Assembly: GCF_002845745.1 (NCBI RefSeq)
Contig: NZ_PIUM01000003.1
Coordinates: 248,001-312,000 of the forward strand
Reading direction: 5' to 3'
From: Telmatospirillum siberiense
Lineage (GTDB): Bacteria; Pseudomonadota; Alphaproteobacteria; Rhodospirillales; Magnetospirillaceae
Length of the DNA stretch: 64,000 nt
Shown here: positions 53,029-64,000 of the stretch, piece by piece
Numbering within the stretch: position 1 is the stretch's first letter
Layout of the letters: each line of letters starts with the position of its first letter
Made by a program: the position numbers and the translations under genes
The notes under the pieces: model-generated
The model's database searches: none
Told to the model about the DNA's origin: nothing
The model's input: only the letters and a program-made list of their open reading frames with translations

Positions 53029-54051
53029 TCACCGGCAGGGAATACCTTCGATCGGACATTCCGGCGTCCCCGGCGTCGAACGCGTGAATGATTCGACCAT
53101 CGCCCGCACCCCTTCGGGGTCGGTGACCCACTTCCTGTAGAAATCATAAGGACAAGCGGCAAGGCCTCGCGCGTCCTCGCCGGAATTGACCGTGCCGGTG
53201 TAGCCGCGATGCAGCAGCTTGTAGAGGTGGTTCTGGCTCTGGCCGTTCTTCCGGTGATCCCTGATCAGCGAGACGGATAGCTGGGCATATTGGATGCCAT
53301 ACTCCTCCTCGCCGCATTCACCGAGCGTCCGCCCATCGAAACCGACGATCGCCGAGTGGCCGAAATAGGTGTAGACGCCATCGAAACCGGCGGCGTTGGC
53401 CACCGCGACATAGACATTGTTGGCCCAGGCCATGGCCTTGGCCATCATCACCTGCTGGTCCTTGGCCGGATACATATAGCCCTGGCACCGAACGATCAGC
53501 TCGGCCCCCTTCATCGCGCAATCACGCCAGATTTCCGGAAAATTGCCGTCGTCGCAGATGATCAGGCTGATCTTCATGCCTTTCGGACCGTCGGAGACAT
53601 AAGTCCCCTCGCCCGGATACCAGCCCTCGATGGGCACCCAGGGCATGATCTTGCGATACTTCTGAACGATCTCGCCCTGGTCGTTCATTAGGATCAGGGT
53701 GTTGTAAGGAGCCTTGCGCGGATGCTCCTCATGGCGCTCGCCGGTCAGGGAGAAGACGCCCCACACCCCGGCCTGCCGGCAGGCGGCGGCGAAGATCTCC
53801 GTCTCCTCGCCGGGAACGGAAGCGGCATTGGCATACATTTCCTCGGCATCGTACATGATGCCGTGGGTCGAATATTCCGGGAAGACCACCAGGTCCATGC
53901 CCGGAAGCCCCCGCTTGAGGCCGACCACCATGTCGGCGATCTTGCCGGCATTGGCCAGAATCTCGGCCTTATCGTGCAGGCGGGGCATCTTGTAGTTGAC
54001 CACGGCCACGCCGACGGTGTCGTTGCTGCTGGTGATATCACCGTGAATCAT
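53029..54051 (-). CDS. amiE: Aliphatic amidase
   Basis: This 340-residue nitrilase-superfamily enzyme hydrolyses short aliphatic amides to acid and ammonia. It has the same layout as the Pseudomonas enzyme ([19 protein letters not shown] start). The catalytic triad is Glu59 (FPEYS), Lys134 (YRKIMPW) and Cys166 ([10 protein letters not shown]). [16 protein letters not shown]-type sequence and [19 protein letters not shown] mark it as AmiE rather than a carbamoylase; formamidase AmiF is the close alternative. It is last in the urt-fmd operon, 10 bp after fmdB. No amiC or amiR regulator is nearby. Confidence 0.93.
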
Positions 54052-54061
54052 TCGTCGTCTC

Positions 54062-54379
54062 CTAATGACTGATCATCCACGGCCTGGCGCCGGGAAAGGA
54101 TTTGGCCGCAACCGAACTCTTCTTGCGGCCGCCATGCGCCCCGCAGCCGCAATTCGGGCCATGTCCCCCGATCCGGCGGGGCGCATGGGCACTCCGTTCG
54201 TTGGTGGCGAACGCCGTTCGCCGCCCGGCCTCCATCAGGGCGAGACCGGGCGCGGTCAACACCACCCTGGGCGCCTCGGCGCCACAGGACGGGCAGGCCT
54301 GCGGCGCCTGGAACTCCGCCATCGGGCGGAGGTCTTCGAAGGGGCCGCAGTGCGGGCAGGCATATTCATAGACCGGCAT
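54062..54379 (-). CDS. fmdB: FmdB-type zinc-ribbon protein
   Basis: The ATG at 54379 gives 105 residues. The N-terminal zinc ribbon [12 protein letters not shown]...CPSCG (four cysteines) is the FmdB family signature. The C-terminal half is Gly/His/Cys-rich ([13 protein letters not shown]) and may bind metal too. FmdB was described as a regulator in the Methylophilus amide operon. It lies between fmdA (11 bp) and amiE (10 bp). Confidence 0.9.
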
Positions 54380-54390
54380 GATCCCCCTCC

Positions 54391-55620
54391 TCAAAGATCC
54401 GGAGACAGCGGCATGGCGACGTCGCCCTTGAGGAATTTGGTCGGACCGGCACTGCCGGGATTGATGTCGAAATCGAAGATCTCGGTGGGAACCCACAAGG
54501 TGGCGCAGGCGTTGGGAATGTCGACCACGCCGCTGATATGTCCCTGCACCGGGGCGGTGCCCAGGATCGAATAGGCCTGGGCGCCGGAATAGCCGAACTT
54601 CTTCAGATATTCGATGGCGTTCAGGCAGGCCTGGCGATAGGCGACATGGACGTCGAGGTAATGCTGCCCCCCCTGCTCATCGACCGAAATTCCTTCGAAA
54701 ATCAGATAGTCCCGATAGTTGGGCGTCACCGGACTGGGTTTGAAAATGGGATTTTTGATGCCGTATTTCGCCACGCCATCCTTGATCAGATCGACCTTCA
54801 GATGCAGCCAGCCGGCCATTTCAATGGCCCCGCAGAAGGTGATCTCGCCGTCGCCCTGGCTGAAATGCAAGTCCCCCATCGACAGGCCGGCGCCGTCGAC
54901 ATAGACCGGGAAATAGACCCGCGCCCCGCGCGACAGATCCTTGATGTCGCAATTGCCGCCATGCTCGCGCGGCGGTACCGTCCGCGCGCCGGTGGCGGCG
55001 GCACCGTCGCGGGCCTCGCCCTTGAGGCGCCCCATATGCGCCGTGGGCGCGAAAGGCGCGTTGGCCAGCGGCGGCACCCGGCCCGGATCGGTGGCGATGA
55101 AGCCCGTCTCGCGGGCATTCCAGGTCTCGAGAAGCTTCTTGTCGGGCAGGCAACCGATCAGGCCGGGATGAACCAGGCCGGCGAAGCTGACGCCGGGGAT
55201 ATGCCGCGACCTGGTATAGAGCCCGGAAATGTCCCAGATCGATTTTTGCGCCTGGGGAAAATGCTCGGTCAGGAAGCCGCCGCCGTTCTTCTTGGAAAAG
55301 AATCCGTTAAAACCCCACTGGCTGTCGGCCAAGGTGCCGATGTCGAGAATGTCGACGACCAGAAGATCGCCGGGCTCGGCGCCGGCCACGCCGATCGGAC
55401 CGCTGAGGAAATGGACGATGGACAGGTCGATGTCGCGCACGTCGTCGGCGGAATCGTCGTTCTTGATGAAGCCGCCGGTCCAGTCGTGGCATTCGATGAT
55501 GAAGTCGTCGCCCGGCTTGACCGTGGCGACCATGGGAATGTCGGGATGCCAGCGGTTATGCACCTTGTCGTTCTCGTAAGGGGACTGGGTCAGGTCGACT
55601 TTGATCAGGGTTTCGGCCAT
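54391..55620 (-). CDS. fmdA: Formamidase (acetamidase/formamidase family)
   Basis: This 409-residue protein hydrolyses formamide to formate and ammonia. Family blocks are PGDDFIIECHDWTGG, AEPGDLLVVDILDIG, the HPGLIGCLPDK loop, REHGGNCDIKDLSRGA and DLHFSQGDGEITFCGAIE. Length matches FmdA. It follows urtE by 34 bp on the same strand, tying amide hydrolysis to the upstream ABC importer. Confidence 0.94.
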   Translation of the reverse strand: MAETLIKVDLTQSPYENDKVHNRWHPDIPMVATVKPGDDFIIECHDWTGGFIKNDDSADDVRDIDLSIVHFLSGPIGVAGAEPGDLLVVDILDIGTLADSQWGFNGFFSKKNGGGFLTEHFPQAQKSIWDISGLYTRSRHIPGVSFAGLVHPGLIGCLPDKKLLETWNARETGFIATDPGRVPPLANAPFAPTAHMGRLKGEARDGAAATGARTVPPREHGGNCDIKDLSRGARVYFPVYVDGAGLSMGDLHFSQGDGEITFCGAIEMAGWLHLKVDLIKDGVAKYGIKNPIFKPSPVTPNYRDYLIFEGISVDEQGGQHYLDVHVAYRQACLNAIEYLKKFGYSGAQAYSILGTAPVQGHISGVVDIPNACATLWVPTEIFDFDINPGSAGPTKFLKGDVAMPLSPDL

Positions 55621-55654: not shown

Positions 55655-56344
55655 TCAAACCGACAGGAAACCGGCGACTTTCGCTTCGTCGAGATTGGCC
55701 CGGCCGTCCTCGTGGACGATCTCGCCGTTTTCGATGACCAGCACGCGGTCGGCGATATCGAGGGCGAAGCTCAGGACCTGTTCGGAAACCAGAATGGACA
55801 GACCGCGCTGATCGCGGATCCGCTTCAGGGTCCGCGCCATGTCGCGAATGATCGACGGCTGGATGCCCTCGGTCGGTTCGTCGAGCAACAGGACCTTGGG
55901 TCCGGTGGCCAGCGCGCGGGCGATGGCGAGCTGCTGCTGCTGGCCGCCCGAGAGATTGCCCCCGCGCCGCCCTTTCATTTCCTGCAATACCGGGAACAAT
56001 TCGTAAAGATCGCCGGGAACCTTGGTGCCGCCGGCGGCGAACAGTCCGGTTTCGATATTTTCCTCCACGGTCATCGCCGAAAAGATCATCCGCCCCTGCG
56101 GCACATAGGCCACGCCCTTGGCGACCCGCTGAAAACTCTTCAGGTTGGTGATCTCGGCGCCGCCGACGCTCACCCTGCCGCTCCTGGTCGGCACGATGCC
56201 CATCAGGGACTTCATCAGGGTGGTCTTGCCCATCCCGTTGCGCCCCATGACGGCGACGATCTCGTTGGGCCGCACGGTGAAATCGATGCCGTGCAGCACC
56301 TCGCTTTGCCCATAGGCGACGCGCACCTCGGAAACGCCGAGCAT
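55655..56344 (-). CDS. urtE: Urea/short-chain amide ABC transporter ATP-binding protein UrtE
   Basis: This 229-residue LivF-type ATPase has Walker A MGRNGMGKTTLMKSL, signature NLSGGQQQQLAIARAL and Walker B KVLLLDEPTEGIQPS. It is last transporter gene of the urtABCDE set, 12 bp after urtD and 34 bp ahead of fmdA. It is paired with UrtD to drive the UrtBC permease. Confidence 0.93.
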   Translation of the reverse strand: MLGVSEVRVAYGQSEVLHGIDFTVRPNEIVAVMGRNGMGKTTLMKSLMGIVPTRSGRVSVGGAEITNLKSFQRVAKGVAYVPQGRMIFSAMTVEENIETGLFAAGGTKVPGDLYELFPVLQEMKGRRGGNLSGGQQQQLAIARALATGPKVLLLDEPTEGIQPSIIRDMARTLKRIRDQRGLSILVSEQVLSFALDIADRVLVIENGEIVHEDGRANLDEAKVAGFLSV

Positions 56345-56356
56345 GGTCCTCTCCTC

Positions 56357-57103
56357 TCAATGTCCGAGATAGACTTCGACCACCTTGGGGTCGGCCTTGA
56401 CCTTGGCCATCGCCCCTTGCGAAATGATCTTGCCCTGATGCAGGACGATCACCTTGTGGGCGATGTCCTCGACGAATTTCATGTCATGTTCGATGACCAG
56501 AACGGACCGGTCGCGGATGATGCGGTTCAGCAATTCGGCCGTTTTGACCCGTTCGCCGACACTCATCCCGGCGACGGGCTCGTCGAGCATCAAAAGATCG
56601 GGGTCCTGGATCAGCAGCATGCCGATCTCCAGCCATTGCTTCTGGCCATGGCTCAGATATTCGGCCCGCATCGACAGGCAGTCCTCGAGGAAGATCATTT
56701 CGGCGACTTCGGCGATCCGCTCGCGAACGGCCGCGTCCGTGCGAAAGAACAAGGCGCCGAACACCGAACGCCCGCGCGGATACGAGATCTCCAGATTCTC
56801 GAAGACCGTCAAAGTCTCGTAGATCGAGGGATTCTGGAACTTGCGCCCGACCCCCGCCCGGACGATCTCATGTTCGGTCTTGGCGGTCAGTTCCTCGCCG
56901 TGAAATTTGATCGAACCGGCGATGGCCTTGGTCCGGCCGCAGATCAGATCGAGCACGGTGGTCTTGCCGGCCCCGTTGGGGCCGATGATCACCAGGATCT
57001 CGTTCTTATCGACATAGAAGGTCAGATCGTCGACCGCCTTGAACCCGTCGAACGAAACGGCGAGATCCTCCACGGACAACACGAAGTCGTTTTGCGTCGG
57101 CAT
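56357..57103 (-). CDS. urtD: Urea/short-chain amide ABC transporter ATP-binding protein UrtD
   Basis: The ATG at 57103 gives 248 residues. LivG-type ATPase with Walker A IGPNGAGKTTVLDLI, the UrtD-typical signature LSHGQKQWLEIGMLL and Walker B LLMLDEPVAGMSVGE. The C-terminal segment IISQGAMAKVKADPKVVEVYLGH is the branched-chain-amino-acid transporter C tail. Confidence 0.93.
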   Translation of the reverse strand: MPTQNDFVLSVEDLAVSFDGFKAVDDLTFYVDKNEILVIIGPNGAGKTTVLDLICGRTKAIAGSIKFHGEELTAKTEHEIVRAGVGRKFQNPSIYETLTVFENLEISYPRGRSVFGALFFRTDAAVRERIAEVAEMIFLEDCLSMRAEYLSHGQKQWLEIGMLLIQDPDLLMLDEPVAGMSVGERVKTAELLNRIIRDRSVLVIEHDMKFVEDIAHKVIVLHQGKIISQGAMAKVKADPKVVEVYLGH

Positions 57104-57116
57104 CGTGCTTACTCCC

Positions 57117-58250
57117 TCAATGGACGCGCGAACCGGTCGAGGCGGCGGCAATCCGGCCGCCCCCCCGTCCCGAACGGAAGCGGCGAGCGATCAGCGGAGC
57201 GGCATAGGTTTGGTAGAGCCCGGCCAGACCGTCGGGAAAGACCATCACGATGGCGATGAACAGACCGCCCATGGCGAACTGCCAAAGCTGGGGAAAGCTT
57301 TCCGACAACAGGGAGCGGCCGAAATTGATCAGCAATGTGCCGTATACCGCGCCGATCAGCGAGGACCGCCCCCCCACCGCGCAATAGATCACCATTTCGA
57401 TCGACGGCACGATGCCGATGAAGGACGACGACATGAAACCGACCTGCAGGGTGAACATGGCGCCGCCGATGGCGGCCAGGCCGGCGGCGAAACAGAAGAC
57501 GAAAATACGAAAACTCGAAACGTCGTAGCCCGAGAAGCGAACCCGATCCTCCTTGTCGCGCATGGCCACCAACAGGCGCCCCAGCTTGGTCTGCTGAACG
57601 AACTGGGCCAGCAGCAAAGCCCCCAGCAACAGGCCGCCGTTGATGAAATAGAGGATCAATTTCGCGTGGTCGGTCCGGATGTCCCATCCCTTCAGCGTAC
57701 GCAGGTCGGTAATGCCGTTGATGCCCCCGGTATATCCCTGCTGGCCGACGATCAGGATGGTGAGAATGGCGGCGATCGCCTGCGTGATGATGGCGAAATA
57801 GACGCCGCCCACCCGGCGCTTGAACATCGCCAGACCGATGACGAAGGCGAACAGGGCAGGCACCACGACCACCGCGACCAGGGAGAAGGACAGGCTATGG
57901 AACGGTTCCCAGAACCACGGCAGCGCCGTCACCTGATTCCAGTCCATGAAATCAGGAATTCCCGGTGTCGACTGGATTTTGGTGTTCTCGGGACTCGATG
58001 CCTCCAATTTCAGGAACATCGCCATGCAATAGCCGCCCAGGCCGAAGAAGACGCCCTGGCCGAGGCTCAAGATCCCGGCATTGCCCCAGCAGAGCACCAG
58101 CCCCAGCGCGACGAAGGCGTAGGTCAGATATTTCCCGACGAGATTGAGTCGGAAGATATCGAAAACGAGCGGAAAGACCACCAGGAGCAGGACCGCCAAA
58201 AGCAGCAGCCCGACGAGGTTTCCGCGACTGGCGAAGAGTGTTTTGCTCAT
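57117..58250 (-). CDS. urtC: Urea/short-chain amide ABC transporter permease UrtC
   Basis: The ATG at 58250 gives 377 residues; the open frame extends upstream to 59402, but that part is a shadow of urtB. About ten membrane helices, with LCWGNAGILSLGQGVFFGLGGYCMAMFL (marker) as the LivM/UrtC core and GYTGGINGITDL, RDKEDRVRFSGYDV as later family blocks. It starts 14 bp after urtB. Confidence 0.93.
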   Translation of the reverse strand: MSKTLFASRGNLVGLLLLAVLLLVVFPLVFDIFRLNLVGKYLTYAFVALGLVLCWGNAGILSLGQGVFFGLGGYCMAMFLKLEASSPENTKIQSTPGIPDFMDWNQVTALPWFWEPFHSLSFSLVAVVVVPALFAFVIGLAMFKRRVGGVYFAIITQAIAAILTILIVGQQGYTGGINGITDLRTLKGWDIRTDHAKLILYFINGGLLLGALLLAQFVQQTKLGRLLVAMRDKEDRVRFSGYDVSSFRIFVFCFAAGLAAIGGAMFTLQVGFMSSSFIGIVPSIEMVIYCAVGGRSSLIGAVYGTLLINFGRSLLSESFPQLWQFAMGGLFIAIVMVFPDGLAGLYQTYAAPLIARRFRSGRGGGRIAAASTGSRVH

Positions 58251-58264
58251 GCCCCGTGCCCTCC

Positions 58265-59191
58265 TTACCGGCGAACCTTGATGACGAACAATCCTTGCGG
58301 CCGCAGCATCAGGATGCCGACGACGCCCAGCAGGACGAGCACCTTGGCCATCGAGCCCGAGAGAAAGAATTCCATGGTCGATTGGGCCTGCGAGATGGAG
58401 AAGGCCGAGGCGATGGTGCCCAACAGACTTTGCGCACCGCCGAAGACGACGACCAGAAAGGTGTCGACGATGTAAAGCTGACCGGATGTCGGCCCGGTCG
58501 AACCGATCATCGTGAAGGCGCTGCCGGCCACTCCGGCGATGCCGCAACCGATGCCGAAGGTGTAGCGGTCGACCCGTTCCGTATCGATGCCCACCGCGCC
58601 CGCCATCGTGCGGTTCTGCACCACGGCACGCACCTTCTTGCCCCAGGACGAGCGGAACATCATGGCGAACACGCAGGCCGTGATCAGCACCGTCAGGGCC
58701 ATGACGAACAGGCCATTGATGGGAATGTCGATGGTCTCGGAAAGATGGGTCGAGCCCATCATCCATTCCGGCAGTTCGACGCCCACCTCGCGCGCCCCGA
58801 AAATCGACCGGTAGGCCTGCTGCAAGACCAGGCTCAACCCCCAGGTGGCCAGCAGGGTATCGAGGGGACGGCGATAGAGGTGGCGGATCATCAGCCATTC
58901 GACGGCCATGCCCAACGCTCCGGCGACCACGAAGGCAAGGACCATCGCCACCAGGAAATAAATGGCGTAGAGCCCCGGCAGGAAGGCCGAAAAGAACCCG
59001 GAGCAGAGATAGGTCACGTAAGCCCCGAGGATCATGAATTCGCCATGCGCCATGTTGATGACGCCCATCTGGCCGAAAATGATGGCGAGGCCGAGCGCCA
59101 TGAGCAAAAAGACGGAAAACAGGCTCAGCCCGGCGAAAGCCTGCATGGCGAAAATCGAACCGAGATCGGCAAAGGAATAACCCATCAGCAT
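58265..59191 (-). CDS. urtB: Urea/short-chain amide ABC transporter permease UrtB
   Basis: This 308-residue LivH-type permease contains FGQMGVINMAHGEFMILGAY and QNRTMAGAVGIDTERVDRYTFGIGCGIAG (markers). It is the short form lacking the long N-terminal extension seen in many proteobacterial UrtB proteins. 220 bp, including a GC-rich repeat, separate it from urtA. Confidence 0.92.
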   Translation of the reverse strand: MLMGYSFADLGSIFAMQAFAGLSLFSVFLLMALGLAIIFGQMGVINMAHGEFMILGAYVTYLCSGFFSAFLPGLYAIYFLVAMVLAFVVAGALGMAVEWLMIRHLYRRPLDTLLATWGLSLVLQQAYRSIFGAREVGVELPEWMMGSTHLSETIDIPINGLFVMALTVLITACVFAMMFRSSWGKKVRAVVQNRTMAGAVGIDTERVDRYTFGIGCGIAGVAGSAFTMIGSTGPTSGQLYIVDTFLVVVFGGAQSLLGTIASAFSISQAQSTMEFFLSGSMAKVLVLLGVVGILMLRPQGLFVIKVRR

Positions 59192-59411: not shown

Positions 59412-60668
59412 TCACTGGTAGCCCTTGGGGAACGGATTGGGTTCCATCAGATCGGGTGTTTCATAGACCAGGTCGTACTGGCCGTCGGCCCGCGCCCGCC
59501 CGACCCGGCTCTTGCTCCACAGGTGATGATTTTCATGGATGCGGACATAACCTTCCGGCGCCCCCTTGAACTCGATGCCGGGGGAGGCCGCGGCCACCTT
59601 GTCGATGTCGAAGCTGCCGGCCTTTTCGACGGTGAGCTTCCATAGCCAGGGACCGAGATAGGCCGCTTGGGTGACGTCGCCGATCACCGCCTTCTCGCCC
59701 CACATCTTCTTGAAGGCGGGGACGAAAGCCTTGTTGTTGGGGTTGTCGAGGGACTGGAAATATTTCATGCAGGCATAGGCGCCGGCGATATTTTCGCCGC
59801 CGATGCCCAGTATTTCGTCCTCGGTCACCGAAATCGTCATCAACGTCTGCTTGTTGAGATCGATGCCCGCCGCTTTCAACTGTTTGTAGAAGGCGACATT
59901 CGATCCGCCGACGACGGACATATAGATGACGTCCGGCTTCTTCAGCTTGATCTTGTTGATGACCGAGTTGAACTCGGTGTTGCCGAGCGGGAAATATTCC
60001 TCGCCGGCGACGGTCAGGCCGTGCATTTCGATATGTTTGCGGGCGATCTTGTTCGACGTCCGCGGCCAGATATAGTCCGAACCCAGCAAATAGAAGGTCT
60101 TCGCCCCCTTCTCCTTCATCACCCAATCGAGTCCGGCGAGAATCTGCTGCGTCGCCTCCTGGCCGGTGTAGATGACGTTCTTCGATTGCTCCAGACCTTC
60201 ATAGAAGGTCGGGTAATAGAGCATGCCGTTATATTGCTCGAAGACGGGCAGCACCGCCTTGCGCGAGGCGGAGGTCCAACAGCCGAAGACGGCGGCCACC
60301 TTGTCATTGACCAGGAGCTTCTTCGACTTCTCGGCGAAGGTCGGCCAGTCGCTGGCGCCATCTTCCTGAATGACTTGAATTTTGCGGCCCAAAACGCCGC
60401 CTTGCTCGTTGATCTGGGCGATCGCCAGCTTTTCGGCCTCGACAGAACCGGTTTCGCTGATCGCCATGGTGCCCGTGATGGAATGCAGAATGCCGACCGT
60501 CACCGTGCTGTCGGTGACCGCCAACCCGGTCGAATTGACGCTCGCGGCCGGAGCCGCGGCGGCCACGGCCCTGGGGAGGAGAGCCAAGCCGGGCACCGCC
60601 GCCATGCCGAAGAGGAGCTTGCGCCGAAGAGCGGATGGACGATCCGAGGAAAAATCACCTGCCGACAT
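59412..60668 (-). CDS. urtA: Urea/short-chain amide ABC transporter substrate-binding protein UrtA
   Basis: The ATG at 60668 (AAGGAG 5 bp upstream; a second ATG at 60671) gives 418 residues. The export signal holds a twin-arginine-like SALRRKLLFGMAAVPG. The mature part shows the UrtA/FmdD blocks VGILHSITGTMAISE, EDGASDWPTFAEKSKKLL, FGCWTSASRKAVLPVFE and YYPTFYEGLEQSKNVIYTGQ. It binds urea or short-chain amides in the periplasm. The partner genes fmdA and amiE, and absence of urease genes here, point to amides as a real substrate. Confidence 0.92.
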   Translation of the reverse strand: MSAGDFSSDRPSALRRKLLFGMAAVPGLALLPRAVAAAAPAASVNSTGLAVTDSTVTVGILHSITGTMAISETGSVEAEKLAIAQINEQGGVLGRKIQVIQEDGASDWPTFAEKSKKLLVNDKVAAVFGCWTSASRKAVLPVFEQYNGMLYYPTFYEGLEQSKNVIYTGQEATQQILAGLDWVMKEKGAKTFYLLGSDYIWPRTSNKIARKHIEMHGLTVAGEEYFPLGNTEFNSVINKIKLKKPDVIYMSVVGGSNVAFYKQLKAAGIDLNKQTLMTISVTEDEILGIGGENIAGAYACMKYFQSLDNPNNKAFVPAFKKMWGEKAVIGDVTQAAYLGPWLWKLTVEKAGSFDIDKVAAASPGIEFKGAPEGYVRIHENHHLWSKSRVGRARADGQYDLVYETPDLMEPNPFPKGYQ

Positions 60669-60765
60669 CATATCTCCTTCACGACTGGGGACGGTGAAAA
60701 GTCCGTCTCGATTGCCGGGAGATGGTCGGATCAAATTATCGATGGCTCAATACGTGGATCACCGT

Positions 60766-60799
60766 ATACGTGTAATACCCCATAGGGAATTACACGTAT
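60766..60799. promoter_or_regulatory. 34-bp near-perfect palindrome upstream of urtA
   Basis: ATACGTGTAAT (60766-60776) and ATTACACGTAT (60789-60799) are perfect complements. The centre ACCCCATAGGGA adds a CCC/GGG pair. It lies about 100 bp upstream of the urtA start, a position suited to an operator or activator site. Confidence 0.7.
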
Positions 60800-60970: not shown

Positions 60971-61010
60971 TCTAGTGCATTGGTTCATTCAAACGGTTCA
61001 ATGCACTAGA
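60971..61010. repeat. TAGTGCATTG palindrome 1
   Basis: TCTAGTGCATTG (60971-60982) with perfect complement CAATGCACTAGA (60999-61010), 16-bp spacer. Confidence 0.7.
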
Positions 61011-61065: not shown

Positions 61066-61112
61066 TAGTGCATTGACGAAATTGTTGAATCTTTTTTTGT
61101 GTCAATGCACTA
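61066..61112. repeat. TAGTGCATTG palindrome 2
   Basis: TAGTGCATTGAC (61066-61077) with perfect complement GTCAATGCACTA (61101-61112); the 23-bp spacer includes a T-run. It shares the same arm sequence as palindrome 1, 95 bp upstream. Paired elements of this kind may be a family of dispersed hairpins or a terminator/operator pair. Confidence 0.7.
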
Positions 61113-61159: not shown

Positions 61160-64000
61160 ATGGCGATTCAGCAACGCATCGTTCGCACGAGGCGCATCTA
61201 CAACCAATGGGTCGCCAACCAGACCCTTGAGGATTTCGCCCTGCGCTTCACCGCCAAGCGGGCGCGGCGCTGGTCCTCGTCGCGGGTGGCCAACACGGCG
61301 TTGGGAGCCATTTCGTTTCTGGCCCTGGAGGCCATCGGCGGAACGGTGACCCTGAGCTATGGCTTTCCGAACGCCGTCGCCGCCATCCTGGCGGTCAGCG
61401 CCATCATCTTCCTGACCTGCGTGCCGATCAGCTATTACGCCGTGAAATATGGCGTCGACATCGACCTTTTGACCCGTGGAGCCGGGTTCGGCTACATCGG
61501 CTCGACCATCACGTCGCTGGTCTATGCCTCGTTCACCTTCATTTTTTTCGCCATCGAAGCCGTCATCATGTCGACGGCGCTGGAGACCTGCTTCGGCATT
61601 CCGCTTTCCGTCGGCTATCTGCTCTGTTCGCTGATCGTCATCCCGCTGGTCACCCACGGCATCACCTTCATCAGCCGGTTCCAGCTCTGGACCCATCCTC
61701 TGTGGATGGGGCTGCATATCGCGCCATTCCTGTTCATCGCCTTGAACAGCCAGGATTCCTTCCGCTCATGGACCGGGTTTTCCGGTCGAGCGGGCGTGGC
61801 GGGCGGAGACTTCGACCCTTTGCTGTTCGGAGCCGCGACCACGGTGGTCTTCTCGCTGATCGCGCAGATCGGCGAACAGGTCGATTTCCTGCGCTTCATG
61901 CCGCAGAACCGGAAGACGAGCCCGACCGGCTGGTGGGTCGCCCTTCTCTCCGGCGGCCCCGGCTGGATTCTTCCGGGACTCGTCAAATTGCTGGCGGGAT
62001 CGTTTCTCGCCGTCCTGGCGATCGGGCACGGCGTTCCCGTCGAACAGGCGGGAGAGCCCACGCATATGTATCAGGTGGCATTCCTCAATATCGTGCCCTC
62101 CCCCGCCGCCGCCATCGCCCTGACCGGCTTTTTCGTCATCGTCTCGCAACTGAAGATCAACGTCACCAACGCCTATGCCGGCTCCATCGCCTGGTCGAAC
62201 TTCTTTTCCCGTCTCACCCATCGCCATCCGGGCCGCGTCATCTGGCTGGTCTTCAATGTGGTGATCGCCCTTCTGCTGATGGAGCTCGGCATCTATCAGG
62301 CCCTGGAGCATATCCTGGGGCTTTATTCCAGCATCGCCGCCAGTTGGGTCGGCGCCCTGGTCGCCGATCTGGTGATCAACAAGCCGTTGCGCCTCAGCCC
62401 GCCGCATATCGAGTTCAAACGCGCCCATCTCTACGACATCAATCCGGTCGGCGTCGGCGCCATGGCCCTCGCGGTTCTGACCTCGGTCGCGGCCTTCCTC
62501 GGGCTGCTGGGTCCCCTGGCGCACGCCTTCACCGCCCTTATCGCCTTTCTCACCGCCTTCACCACGGCCCCGCTCATCGCCCTGGCCACCAAGGGCCGCT
62601 ACTACATCGCGCGCAAGGCCCGGCGCAATTGGCGCGACGCCACCGAAATCGTCTGCTGCATTTGCGAAAACAGCTTCGAACCCGAGGACATGGCGCATTG
62701 TCCGGCCTATTCGGGACCGATCTGTTCGCTATGCTGTTCGCTGGATTCCCGCTGTAACGATCTGTGCAAACCGACGGCACGCCTTTCCCATCAGATCCTC
62801 GCCCTGCTGCGATCCTTCCTGCCCGAACCGATTGTTTCGCGGCTGCATTCACCACTCGGCCATTACCTCGGCGTACTCGCCATGCTGCTGGGACTGATCG
62901 CCTTCATCCTGACCATCATCTATACGCAATCGACCTTCGGGGCCGAGGAACTCAAGCCGATCATCAAGATCGCCTTCGAAAAGACCTTCGTCATCGTCGG
63001 CATCATCGCCGCCATCGTGTCCTGGCTTTATGTGCTGGCCCAGGAAAGCCGGCGGACCGCCCAGATGGAAACGCGGCGGCAGACCGACCTGCTGATCAAG
63101 GAGATTCAGGCCCATAACCATACCGACGCCCAACTGCAAAAGGCCAAAGAGGTAGCCGAAGCGGCCAATCTGGCCAAAAGCCGCTATGTCGTCGGCATGA
63201 CCCATGAATTGAGGACTCCGTTGAACGCCATCCTGGGTTATGCCCAGCTTCTTGAACGCGACAGCACCATTCCGCCGCACCGGCGCGACGCCATCGCGGT
63301 GATCCGGCGCAGCGGCGATCATCTGTCCGGCCTGATCGAGGGCCTGCTCGATATTTCGAAAATCGAAGCCGGTCGTCTGCGATTGCGGCGCGACGAGGTG
63401 CGTCTGGCGGCATTCCTCGAACAGATCATCGATATGTTCCGCTTGCAGGCAAGCGTCAAAGGACTGGACTTCATCTTCCAACCCATCGATCACCTGCCCT
63501 CGATGGTCCATACCGACGAAGCCCGCCTTCGCCAGATCCTCATCAACCTGCTGTCGAACGCCATCAAATTCACCAGGGATGGCCATGTCGCCGTGCGATT
63601 CCGTTATCGCAGCCAGGTGGCGGAATTCGACGTCGAGGACACCGGCGTCGGAATCCAGCCGGGAGACATCGCCAGGGTCTTCGAACCGTTCGAGCGGGTG
63701 GAAACGCCGGGGCTTGAACCCGTACCGGGAATCGGTCTGGGTTTGACCATCACCAAACTGCTCACCGAAGTCATGGGAGGAGAGATATCGGTGAGCAGCA
63801 GGGTGGGGAAAGGCACGGTTTTTCGCGTTAAGATGCTGTTGTCCGAAGTGCAGAATCCCAGTCCGACACTCGCCGCCCAGGCCACGGCGATCGGCTATCT
63901 GGGACGCCGCCGGAGCGTCATGGTCGTCGATAACGACGCCTCTCATCGCGCCCTGATCGAGGATCTTCTGATCCCGCTCGGGTTCGATCTGGAAAGCGTG
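61160..64000 (+). CDS. Hybrid histidine kinase with N-terminal permease domain and cysteine cluster, 3'-truncated
   Basis: The frame is open from the ATG at 61160 (GGAGGG 9 bp upstream) to the window end; 947 residues are visible. Residues about 1-480 are a purine/cytosine-permease (NCS1-like) transporter with about twelve helices (NQTLEDFALRFTAKRARRWS, NTALGAISFLALEAIGG). Residues 498-540 hold a cysteine/histidine cluster beginning C499-C500-I-C502, with CSLCC and CNDLC later. Two more helices follow (about 565-630), then a kinase with H-box MTHELRTPLN (His682), N-box NLLSNAIKF, and G-boxes DTGVGIQPGD and GIGLGLTI. A receiver domain starts near residue 920 (VMVVDNDASH) and is cut off before its phospho-Asp. 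It is divergent from urtA and probably regulates that operon. Confidence 0.88.
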   Translation, partial: MAIQQRIVRTRRIYNQWVANQTLEDFALRFTAKRARRWSSSRVANTALGAISFLALEAIGGTVTLSYGFPNAVAAILAVSAIIFLTCVPISYYAVKYGVDIDLLTRGAGFGYIGSTITSLVYASFTFIFFAIEAVIMSTALETCFGIPLSVGYLLCSLIVIPLVTHGITFISRFQLWTHPLWMGLHIAPFLFIALNSQDSFRSWTGFSGRAGVAGGDFDPLLFGAATTVVFSLIAQIGEQVDFLRFMPQNRKTSPTGWWVALLSGGPGWILPGLVKLLAGSFLAVLAIGHGVPVEQAGEPTHMYQVAFLNIVPSPAAAIALTGFFVIVSQLKINVTNAYAGSIAWSNFFSRLTHRHPGRVIWLVFNVVIALLLMELGIYQALEHILGLYSSIAASWVGALVADLVINKPLRLSPPHIEFKRAHLYDINPVGVGAMALAVLTSVAAFLGLLGPLAHAFTALIAFLTAFTTAPLIALATKGRYYIARKARRNWRDATEIVCCICENSFEPEDMAHCPAYSGPICSLCCSLDSRCNDLCKPTARLSHQILALLRSFLPEPIVSRLHSPLGHYLGVLAMLLGLIAFILTIIYTQSTFGAEELKPIIKIAFEKTFVIVGIIAAIVSWLYVLAQESRRTAQMETRRQTDLLIKEIQAHNHTDAQLQKAKEVAEAANLAKSRYVVGMTHELRTPLNAILGYAQLLERDSTIPPHRRDAIAVIRRSGDHLSGLIEGLLDISKIEAGRLRLRRDEVRLAAFLEQIIDMFRLQASVKGLDFIFQPIDHLPSMVHTDEARLRQILINLLSNAIKFTRDGHVAVRFRYRSQVAEFDVEDTGVGIQPGDIARVFEPFERVETPGLEPVPGIGLGLTITKLLTEVMGGEISVSSRVGKGTVFRVKMLLSEVQNPSPTLAAQATAIGYLGRRRSVMVVDNDASHRALIEDLLIPLGFDLESV

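Follow-up and report, generated by a model that had tools for sequence, protein, structure and literature searches.

Known systems and the locus under study

Histidine kinases fused to transporters, or to domains derived from them, are represented by CbrA (PMC7096432), by RpuS and the SLC5/STAC family (PMC9100948) and by Ks-Amt5 (PMC5764959), and RpuS is described as regulating an importer, distinct from itself, of the compound presumed to be its signal (PMC9100948, PMC7096432). The present analysis concerns a further fusion, a hybrid histidine kinase preceded by a permease-like domain, the gene for which begins near the end of a 64,000-nucleotide stretch of DNA (G000:C33:248001-312000; hereafter the window) from the 6.2 Mb genome of Telmatospirillum siberiense. 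It is likely that this sensor and a regulator encoded next door form a two-component system in which a receptor derived from a permease detects small amides (formamide, acetamide and/or urea) and the import and hydrolysis of these compounds are regulated in response; if so, a regulator of nitrogen from amides and urea that is widespread and has apparently escaped study would have its ligand class, partner and operator already predicted.

Like the SLC5/STAC kinases CbrA, CrbS and RpuS, the sensor combines a secondary-transporter domain with a histidine kinase. In those proteins the transporter part is of the SLC5 symporter kind and the linker is STAC, whereas the present one has an NCS1-like fold, an eight-cysteine domain plus two helices and a setting of amide and urea genes, and no SSF domain was matched in it by Pfam at E values up to 10. 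As with Ks-Amt5, an uptake transporter appears to have been recruited as a sensor by fusion to a kinase; the transporter in that case is an Amt channel, not a protein of NCS1-like fold, the relevant passages on Ks-Amt5 mention no cysteine domain (PMC5764959), and Pfam found no ammonium-transporter domain in the sensor at E values up to 10.

The genes presumed to be controlled are themselves familiar. Clusters with the same transport and enzyme genes occur in Bradyrhizobium and Pseudomonas, where urt genes beside fmdA/amiE have been suggested to carry acetamide or formamide (B. japonicum, PMC3098086; P. veronii, PMC13209695); an adjacent sensor kinase or operator goes unmentioned in the passages concerned. 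A histidine kinase and a LuxR-type regulator have been drawn beside urtABCDE, no function being given in the accessible part of that article (PMC13296017). GrtK/GrtR was considered as a known equivalent and set aside, the kinase being PilS-like and unrelated according to the portion consulted (PMC12918730). Nothing on the sensor system was found in the accessible parts of an Azospirillum two-component survey (PMC4618731) and of PMC9162365, and literature searches, judged on titles, abstracts and passages and with most subscription journals outside their reach, found the fusion nowhere described as a sensor.

Architecture of the sensor and its partner regulator

The sensor gene starts on the forward strand with an ATG at 61160, preceded by a GGAG-type ribosome site, runs to the end of the window (64000) and continues into the adjoining stretch of the same contig (L002), where an open reading frame (ORF) of 1127 residues is completed at L002:4044. 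The permease-fold, NCS1-like input domain occupies residues ~22-485 (61223-62614), as judged from a model and its fold matches, Pfam giving none. It is followed by the eight-cysteine domain (residues 499-536; 62654-62767), a probable two-zinc module on the basis of conservation and weak RING/FYVE-like matches, and by another pair of helices (residues 565-592 and 596-678; 62852-63193) which the preliminary description had anticipated and which are visible in the AlphaFold2 model. Pfam then identified HisKA (residues 673-738; 63176-63373), the phospho-acceptor of which is assigned by motif to His682, and HATPase_c (residues 785-893; 63512-63838), the N/G1/G2 motifs being present in the kinase part. 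A Response_reg receiver spans residues 920-1030, of which the beginning lies at 63917-64000 and the phospho-acceptor Asp968 beyond the window. This complement of HisKA, HATPase_c and receiver, with phospho-acceptor residues, is that of a hybrid two-component sensor kinase, and the fusion of a transporter-derived domain to a kinase, as originally described, is by this sequence evidence real, the kinase half resting on Pfam and the permease half on predicted fold.

The adjoining sequence, to which the preliminary description had looked for the rest of the receiver and for a partner, provided both. The partner is a LuxR-type response regulator gene located at L002 4037-4966, 309 residues from its ATG, which overlaps the sensor stop codon; Pfam assigned its product to the NarL/FixJ type (REC, E 1.3e-27; GerE, E 1.1e-17).

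Recurrent amide and urea genes beside the sensor

Matches to the sensor domain at E 1e-20 or better were obtained in 26 of 385 genomes drawn from the class, 52 of 398 from the phylum and 7 of 100 from the order, draws that overlap in some genomes. A further 534 plasmid records matched the domain at E 1e-5 (520 of them over at least 80% of the query, and 342 labelled Klebsiella), a figure that includes kinase-free relatives. Neighbourhoods of up to ~20 kb around matches were searched with reference genes by tblastn, a procedure adopted in place of ORF clustering, which worked badly for naming neighbours in GC-rich DNA. The resultant survey of 176 loci contains six duplicate rows, the non-member L141 and the kinase-free L032; the tally of 83 loci reported here, taken from the genome draws, includes the window's own locus, excludes L141 (27% identity), and retains the fragment L058 and the contig-end locus L094. 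Loci from the genome-contig search are the best 80 of 591 matches, and are biased towards near relatives.

Genes for urt, formamidase, amidase or urease adjoined the sensor in 76 of the 83 loci, and the regulator was likewise present in 76, the recurrence of a urt/fmd neighbourhood among relatives thereby bearing out an expectation of the preliminary description. The individual counts were 48 for fmdA, 50 for amide-type urtA, 17 for other urtA, 21 for amidase and 14 for urease genes, the two kinds of UrtA being 39-43% identical to each other and 66-85% identical within a kind for the pairs compared. A Methylovirgula cluster combines fmdAB, sensor, regulator, permease and amidase without urtABCDE, and in an A. 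baumannii record the sensor and a permease are divergent neighbours with the palindrome described below between them.

Co-occurrence was counted across the 385 class genomes: FmdA was present in 21, the sensor in 26 and both in 17 (hypergeometric p ~1e-19 or less, a value that ignores kinship). All 17 FmdA places with at least 76% identity fell in sensor genomes, and the four FmdA genomes lacking the sensor contained versions of 63-67% identity, two of them beside another urt set. Nine sensor genomes had no FmdA; urease was found in six of the eight tested, and the other two (G175, G271) each carried urea carboxylase plus allophanate hydrolase beside the sensor.

The preliminary description had taken the signal to be a nitrogen-rich compound, whether amide, urea, purine or hydantoin. 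The recurring neighbours make an amide or urea likely and lend no support to a purine or hydantoin; a ligand of the latter type, suggested by likeness to NCS1, was rejected because the genes that do recur are those for urt, formamidase, amidase, urease and urea-amidolyase, with the proviso that purine genes were not screened in all neighbours. Hydantoinase-type genes do lie near one plasmid locus.

Whether the sensor responds to the substrate of the neighbouring genes, or in all hosts to a single cue reporting nitrogen or urea status in general, was considered in the light of a sensor tree (116 rows after thinning, built by a quick search that left 33 of its 113 inner branches open). On this tree the amide or urea label of the neighbourhood changes at least seven times, and amide-linked and urea-linked sensors are not cleanly told apart by any residue, both of which are as a general signal would have it, and the latter of which means that the ligand may be one common molecule. 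Small-amide genes are nevertheless the constant theme, and kinase-free relatives of the sensor domain also adjoin amide or urea enzymes, for which reasons a general status signal is judged unlikely and a small-amide signal is preferred.

In the window itself the genes concerned are all on the reverse strand and divergent from the sensor, in agreement with the preliminary description: the urtA ATG is at 60671 and that of the sensor at 61160. Reference-gene comparison assigned urtA (59412-60671), coding for a substrate-binding protein, to the amide type. Downstream lie urtB (58265-59191), urtC (57117-58264), urtD (56357-57109) and urtE (55655-56344), the starts of urtC and urtD being approximate; fmdA (54391-55620), placed by Pfam in the formamidase/acetamidase family PF03069; fmdB (54062-54382, start approximate), coding for a zinc-ribbon protein recognised by likeness to annotated FmdB-type neighbours; and amiE (53029-54051), coding for a carbon-nitrogen hydrolase (PF00795) of the aliphatic amidase type, 85% identical to an annotated aliphatic amidase region.

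A palindrome shared by the putative target genes

A matrix derived from the gaps between urtA and the sensor, comprising the 90 non-redundant members of a set of 123 (four of the 123 being duplicates), defined an 18-bp palindrome with the consensus ATACGTCA-AT-TGACGTAT. The dyads ATACG-N8-CGTAT and TACGTC-N4-GACGTA occurred in 37 and 24 of the 90 gaps; in base-shuffled gaps, over three rounds, the commonest dyad of any kind reached just 4 and 2. The matrix located a site in 88 of the 90 gaps that trained it, scoring above the 99th percentile of 450 shuffled gaps. TACGTCA-N2-TGACGTA has the palindromic 7-2-7 layout given for NarL, and may be an operator for a regulator of that type. The candidate in the window, ATACGTGGATCACCGTAT (60750-60767; score 19.5), lies 79 bp upstream of the urtA ATG and is the only exact ATACG-N8-CGTAT there, and one of four in the genome; the other three are located at G000:C6:127703, C11:211678 and C81:101562.

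Outside the gaps, the same 123 loci yielded 29 sites above 14 bits in 2,387,192 bases, of which 21 were upstream of fmdA (one duplicate pair included), three upstream of amiE, two ~120 bp before a porin gene and three unexplained. When the matrix was applied to 54 held-out loci, 33 of 40 sites, distributed over 29 loci, fell just upstream of target genes, a zone representing 3.7% of the bases; the other seven included two before allophanate hydrolase, in L055 (65 bp ahead of the ORF) and similarly in L056, and one in L050 ahead of a porin gene which urtA follows. The palindrome is consequently found again ahead of fmdA, amiE, urtA and urea-amidolyase genes that stand apart, and seldom at other places in the loci scanned. 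In three Tistrella-type genomes, where urtA is on a contig other than that of the sensor, the best site of its 19 kb is situated 144-156 bp upstream of that gene.

A porin gene (L055 10884-12050; PF07396) was also encountered in L050, L056, L040 and L042, near urt or sensor genes and with the palindrome upstream; its product is possibly an outer-membrane entry for urea or amides.

Taken with the 76 loci above, this common palindrome upholds the tie between the sensor and the urt-fmd-ami genes originally proposed, and putative control of those genes by the sensor is well supported by comparison. The preferred mechanism would run as follows. An NCS1-like permease turned receptor would serve as the input module; occupation of its pocket by a small amide would produce a change that is relayed to the kinase via the cysteine domain and the two helices after it; a phosphoryl group would then move from His682, perhaps via Asp968, to the LuxR-type regulator, which would bind the palindrome and switch on urtABCDE-fmdAB-amiE. 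In relatives, the same pair may control urease, urea carboxylase/allophanate hydrolase, a porin or a kinase-free permease.

A number of observations weigh against this reading. Seven of the 83 loci have no such neighbour in the stretch examined; three of the seven are Tistrella-type, with urtABCDE-fmdAB on another contig, and L094 is at a contig edge. Kinase-free relatives of the sensor domain in Streptomyces and Arthrobacter NicSoilB11 have no annotated amide or urea gene within ~6 kb, and the indifference of sensor residues to the amide or urea setting, noted above, belongs here too. As regards the palindrome, 25 of the 54 held-out loci had no site above 14 bits in the target zone; the matrix found none in the gap of L054; and none above 11 bits was found in 14 sensor loci (L053, L058, L117, L122, L127, L132, L133, L134, L136, L140, L149, L156, L211 and L223). 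Sites were absent or weak in about half of a urease-linked betaproteobacterial group, and the three Tistrella-type urtA sites scored only 10.7-11.1.

Such gaps, together with the fact that binding by the regulator is a prediction from sequence, leave room for the alternative that the palindrome is bound by something other than the neighbouring LuxR-type regulator, the sensor pair controlling something else and the neighbourhood reflecting merely a shared nitrogen control. That alternative is improbable: the formamidase loci of sensor-free genomes (L248-L251) had no site upstream of urt or fmdA, and in loci without urt the palindrome precedes the sensor itself (L033, L051, L052), distributions which both favour the neighbouring regulator as the predicted binder.

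Palindromes had been noted in the urtA-sensor gap in the preliminary description. They are present, with the qualification that the two pairs nearest the sensor (60972-61009 and 61066-61112; arms TAGTGCATTG..CAATGCACTA) look like a dispersed repeat, the operator candidate being another palindrome. Arm pairs TAGTGCATTGA..TCAATGCACTA, with no more than 20 bases between them, recur exactly at four other places in the genome, on which account the two pairs are probably copies of that repeat; those in the window have a mismatch or a longer spacer instead.

The permease-fold domain and its kinase-free relatives

An AlphaFold2 model of sensor residues 1-680 (predicted local distance difference test, pLDDT, 81.7; predicted template modelling score, pTM, 0.81) contains a permease fold, the best structural matches to which were NCS1 proteins: CodB with a Z score of 35.0 over 397 residues, and Mhp1 with Z 27.1-29.8. 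The first structure from outside NCS1 scored Z 24.5, and SLC5-type structures Z 22.4 and below.

Sequence evidence for the same kinship was less direct. Pfam PF02133 (NCS1) gave no match in the sensor, though a kinase-free Klebsiella relative, 41% identical to the sensor domain, passes it (37.7 bits against a cut-off of 23.5), and it is for this reason that the domain, related by modelled fold and a chain of homology rather than by Pfam, is termed NCS1-like and not named a member of the family. Annotated cytosine and allantoin permeases were weakly matched by the domain in tblastn (25%, E 9e-13; 24%, E 2e-6). Searches of PDB sequences by phmmer with the sensor domain, and by hmmsearch with 21 sensors or with 8 kinase-free permeases, returned no NCS1 structure, and hhalign of sensors against the source genome's own NCS1 permease gave nothing. 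One profile, A3, did match CodB (E 6.5e-7), from an alignment that also included the ordinary NCS1 permeases L001 and L153; profiles without those two do not reproduce the match, which slightly lowers the likelihood of the preferred small-amide reading and of the family proposal below, and A3 was dropped as independent proof of NCS1 kinship.

The sensor domain, while sharing the predicted fold of CodB and Mhp1, differs from both in its fusion to a kinase and its failure to match PF02133, and also at the sodium site. The Na2 sodium ligands of CodB include Thr278 and Thr279 (PMC9379551). In three alignment modes these align with Lys332 (108 of 108 sensor rows) and Ile333 (107 of 108), residues also present at these positions in all 8 kinase-free relatives, so that hydroxyls of the CodB type are wanting in both groups. 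Some NCS1 members are proton-driven, and the missing Na2 hydroxyls alone do not therefore rule out membership. For sensor and relatives alike, the alignment predicts a sodium-independent site with a lysine in the sodium's place.

Several of the kinase-free relatives, which are 37-53% identical to the sensor domain, are found in settings resembling those of the sensors: beside urease genes in a Klebsiella record and on an Acinetobacter plasmid, beside fmdA-fmdB in Moraxella, two genes from fmdB-fmdA in Tsukamurella, and ahead of an amidase gene in Arthrobacter U41. As described for the metformin transporter MetT, an NCS1 protein can have a nitrogen compound without a ring as its substrate (PMC13390362). 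Eight residues (E133, Q236, E239, K276, Q330, K332, N334 and N337) are fixed in all 108 sensors and all 8 kinase-free permeases, and three fixed differences separate the two groups: the sensors have F53, E57 and A340 (108 of 108 rows), the kinase-free relatives Y53, D56 and S340 (8 of 8), with F or Q at position 57. It is proposed, with slightly less than even confidence, that the sensors form a family of proteobacterial kinases in which a permease made into a receptor recognises small amides (urea, formamide, acetamide), the conversion being marked by the change of Y53 to F, the loss of D56 with gain of E57, and the change of S340 to A; the kinase-free relatives, the Klebsiella urease-side one included, would then be unrecognised sodium-independent urea or amide permeases currently annotated as cytosine or allantoin permeases. 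Were this correct, it would offer a clean case of conversion from transporter to receptor, the two differing at few fixed positions, and would predict what is carried by the 'cytosine/allantoin permeases' encoded next to genes for urease and formamidase.

A separate observation concerns a Klebsiella record (NZ_CP129771.1; L239 5989-7596), in which a 'cytosine permease' of this same family comes directly after ureG and is a candidate urea permease.

The domain might alternatively still transport the amide, the kinase reading the transport cycle after the manner of CbrA, which is reported to transport L-histidine (PMC7096432). The eight shared residues constitute most of those in the pocket region and would suit such a transceptor; the three fixed differences near the pocket would not, and a separate importer, whether urtABCDE or a kinase-free permease, accompanies most sensors. 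Ks-Amt5 provides a precedent in the opposite direction, having lost transport on becoming a sensor (PMC5764959). Continued transport is on this evidence somewhat unlikely, and a domain that senses rather than transports remains the preferred interpretation.

Three shorter relatives, L134, L136 and L147, have frames of ~900 residues, and the usual regulator is not next door to them; two of the three are near fmdA.

The eight-cysteine domain

Of 108 sensor rows, 106-108 retain each of cysteines 499, 502, 514, 522, 525, 526, 532 and 536. The preliminary description had reported a conserved-looking Cys/His cluster beginning at Cys499 and considered it a possible metal or redox switch; the conservation of the cysteines stood, that of histidine did not, no histidine of the cluster being invariant in 21 sensors. 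Were the cluster a redox or metal sensor providing the main input to the kinase, its near-invariance would follow readily, whereas its distribution would not. Part of it is present in the kinase-free relatives from Moraxella, Acinetobacter and Klebsiella, which end within it, and in that from Streptomyces, the whole of it is present in the kinase-free Methylovirgula permease, and three actinobacterial relatives have lost most of the cysteines. The model of the domain (pLDDT 81.7) gave weak structural matches (best Foldseek E 0.41, best Z 3.0), many of the top rows being RING, FYVE, PHD, LIM or ZZ domains; these are suggestive only, and, like the weak profile matches, they point to structural zinc domains. 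A redox or metal input is for these reasons very improbable, the switch originally suggested was not sustained, and the domain looks like a structural zinc module common to sensors and permeases.

Plasmid-borne systems and minor observations

The UrtABC/AmiF set of Klebsiella CG307 is called a high-affinity urea transporter in the part of the report concerned (PMC13060141). On the one plasmid examined (OW848915.1; L030), UrtA belongs to the formamidase-linked kind, with 76% identity to that of the window and 40-43% to urease-linked ones; urtA and the sensor gene are divergent there, and the palindrome in the intervening gap scores 27.0. The printed urea-transporter UrtA would on this basis be a formamidase-linked protein paired with the sensor and its operator candidate, and urea may still be a substrate.

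Sensor matches were also recorded in two Acinetobacter 'phage MD-2021a' records (H116, H117; 329-379 kb) and in a 4.09 Mb 'plasmid' (NZ_CP104448.1), contents and sizes that suggest bacterial DNA or mislabelled chromosomes. The next gene but one beyond the sensor of the window (L002 5192-7804) codes for an 870-residue protein with a beta-lactamase fold, two stretches that bind cyclic nucleotide monophosphates, and a hemerythrin domain.

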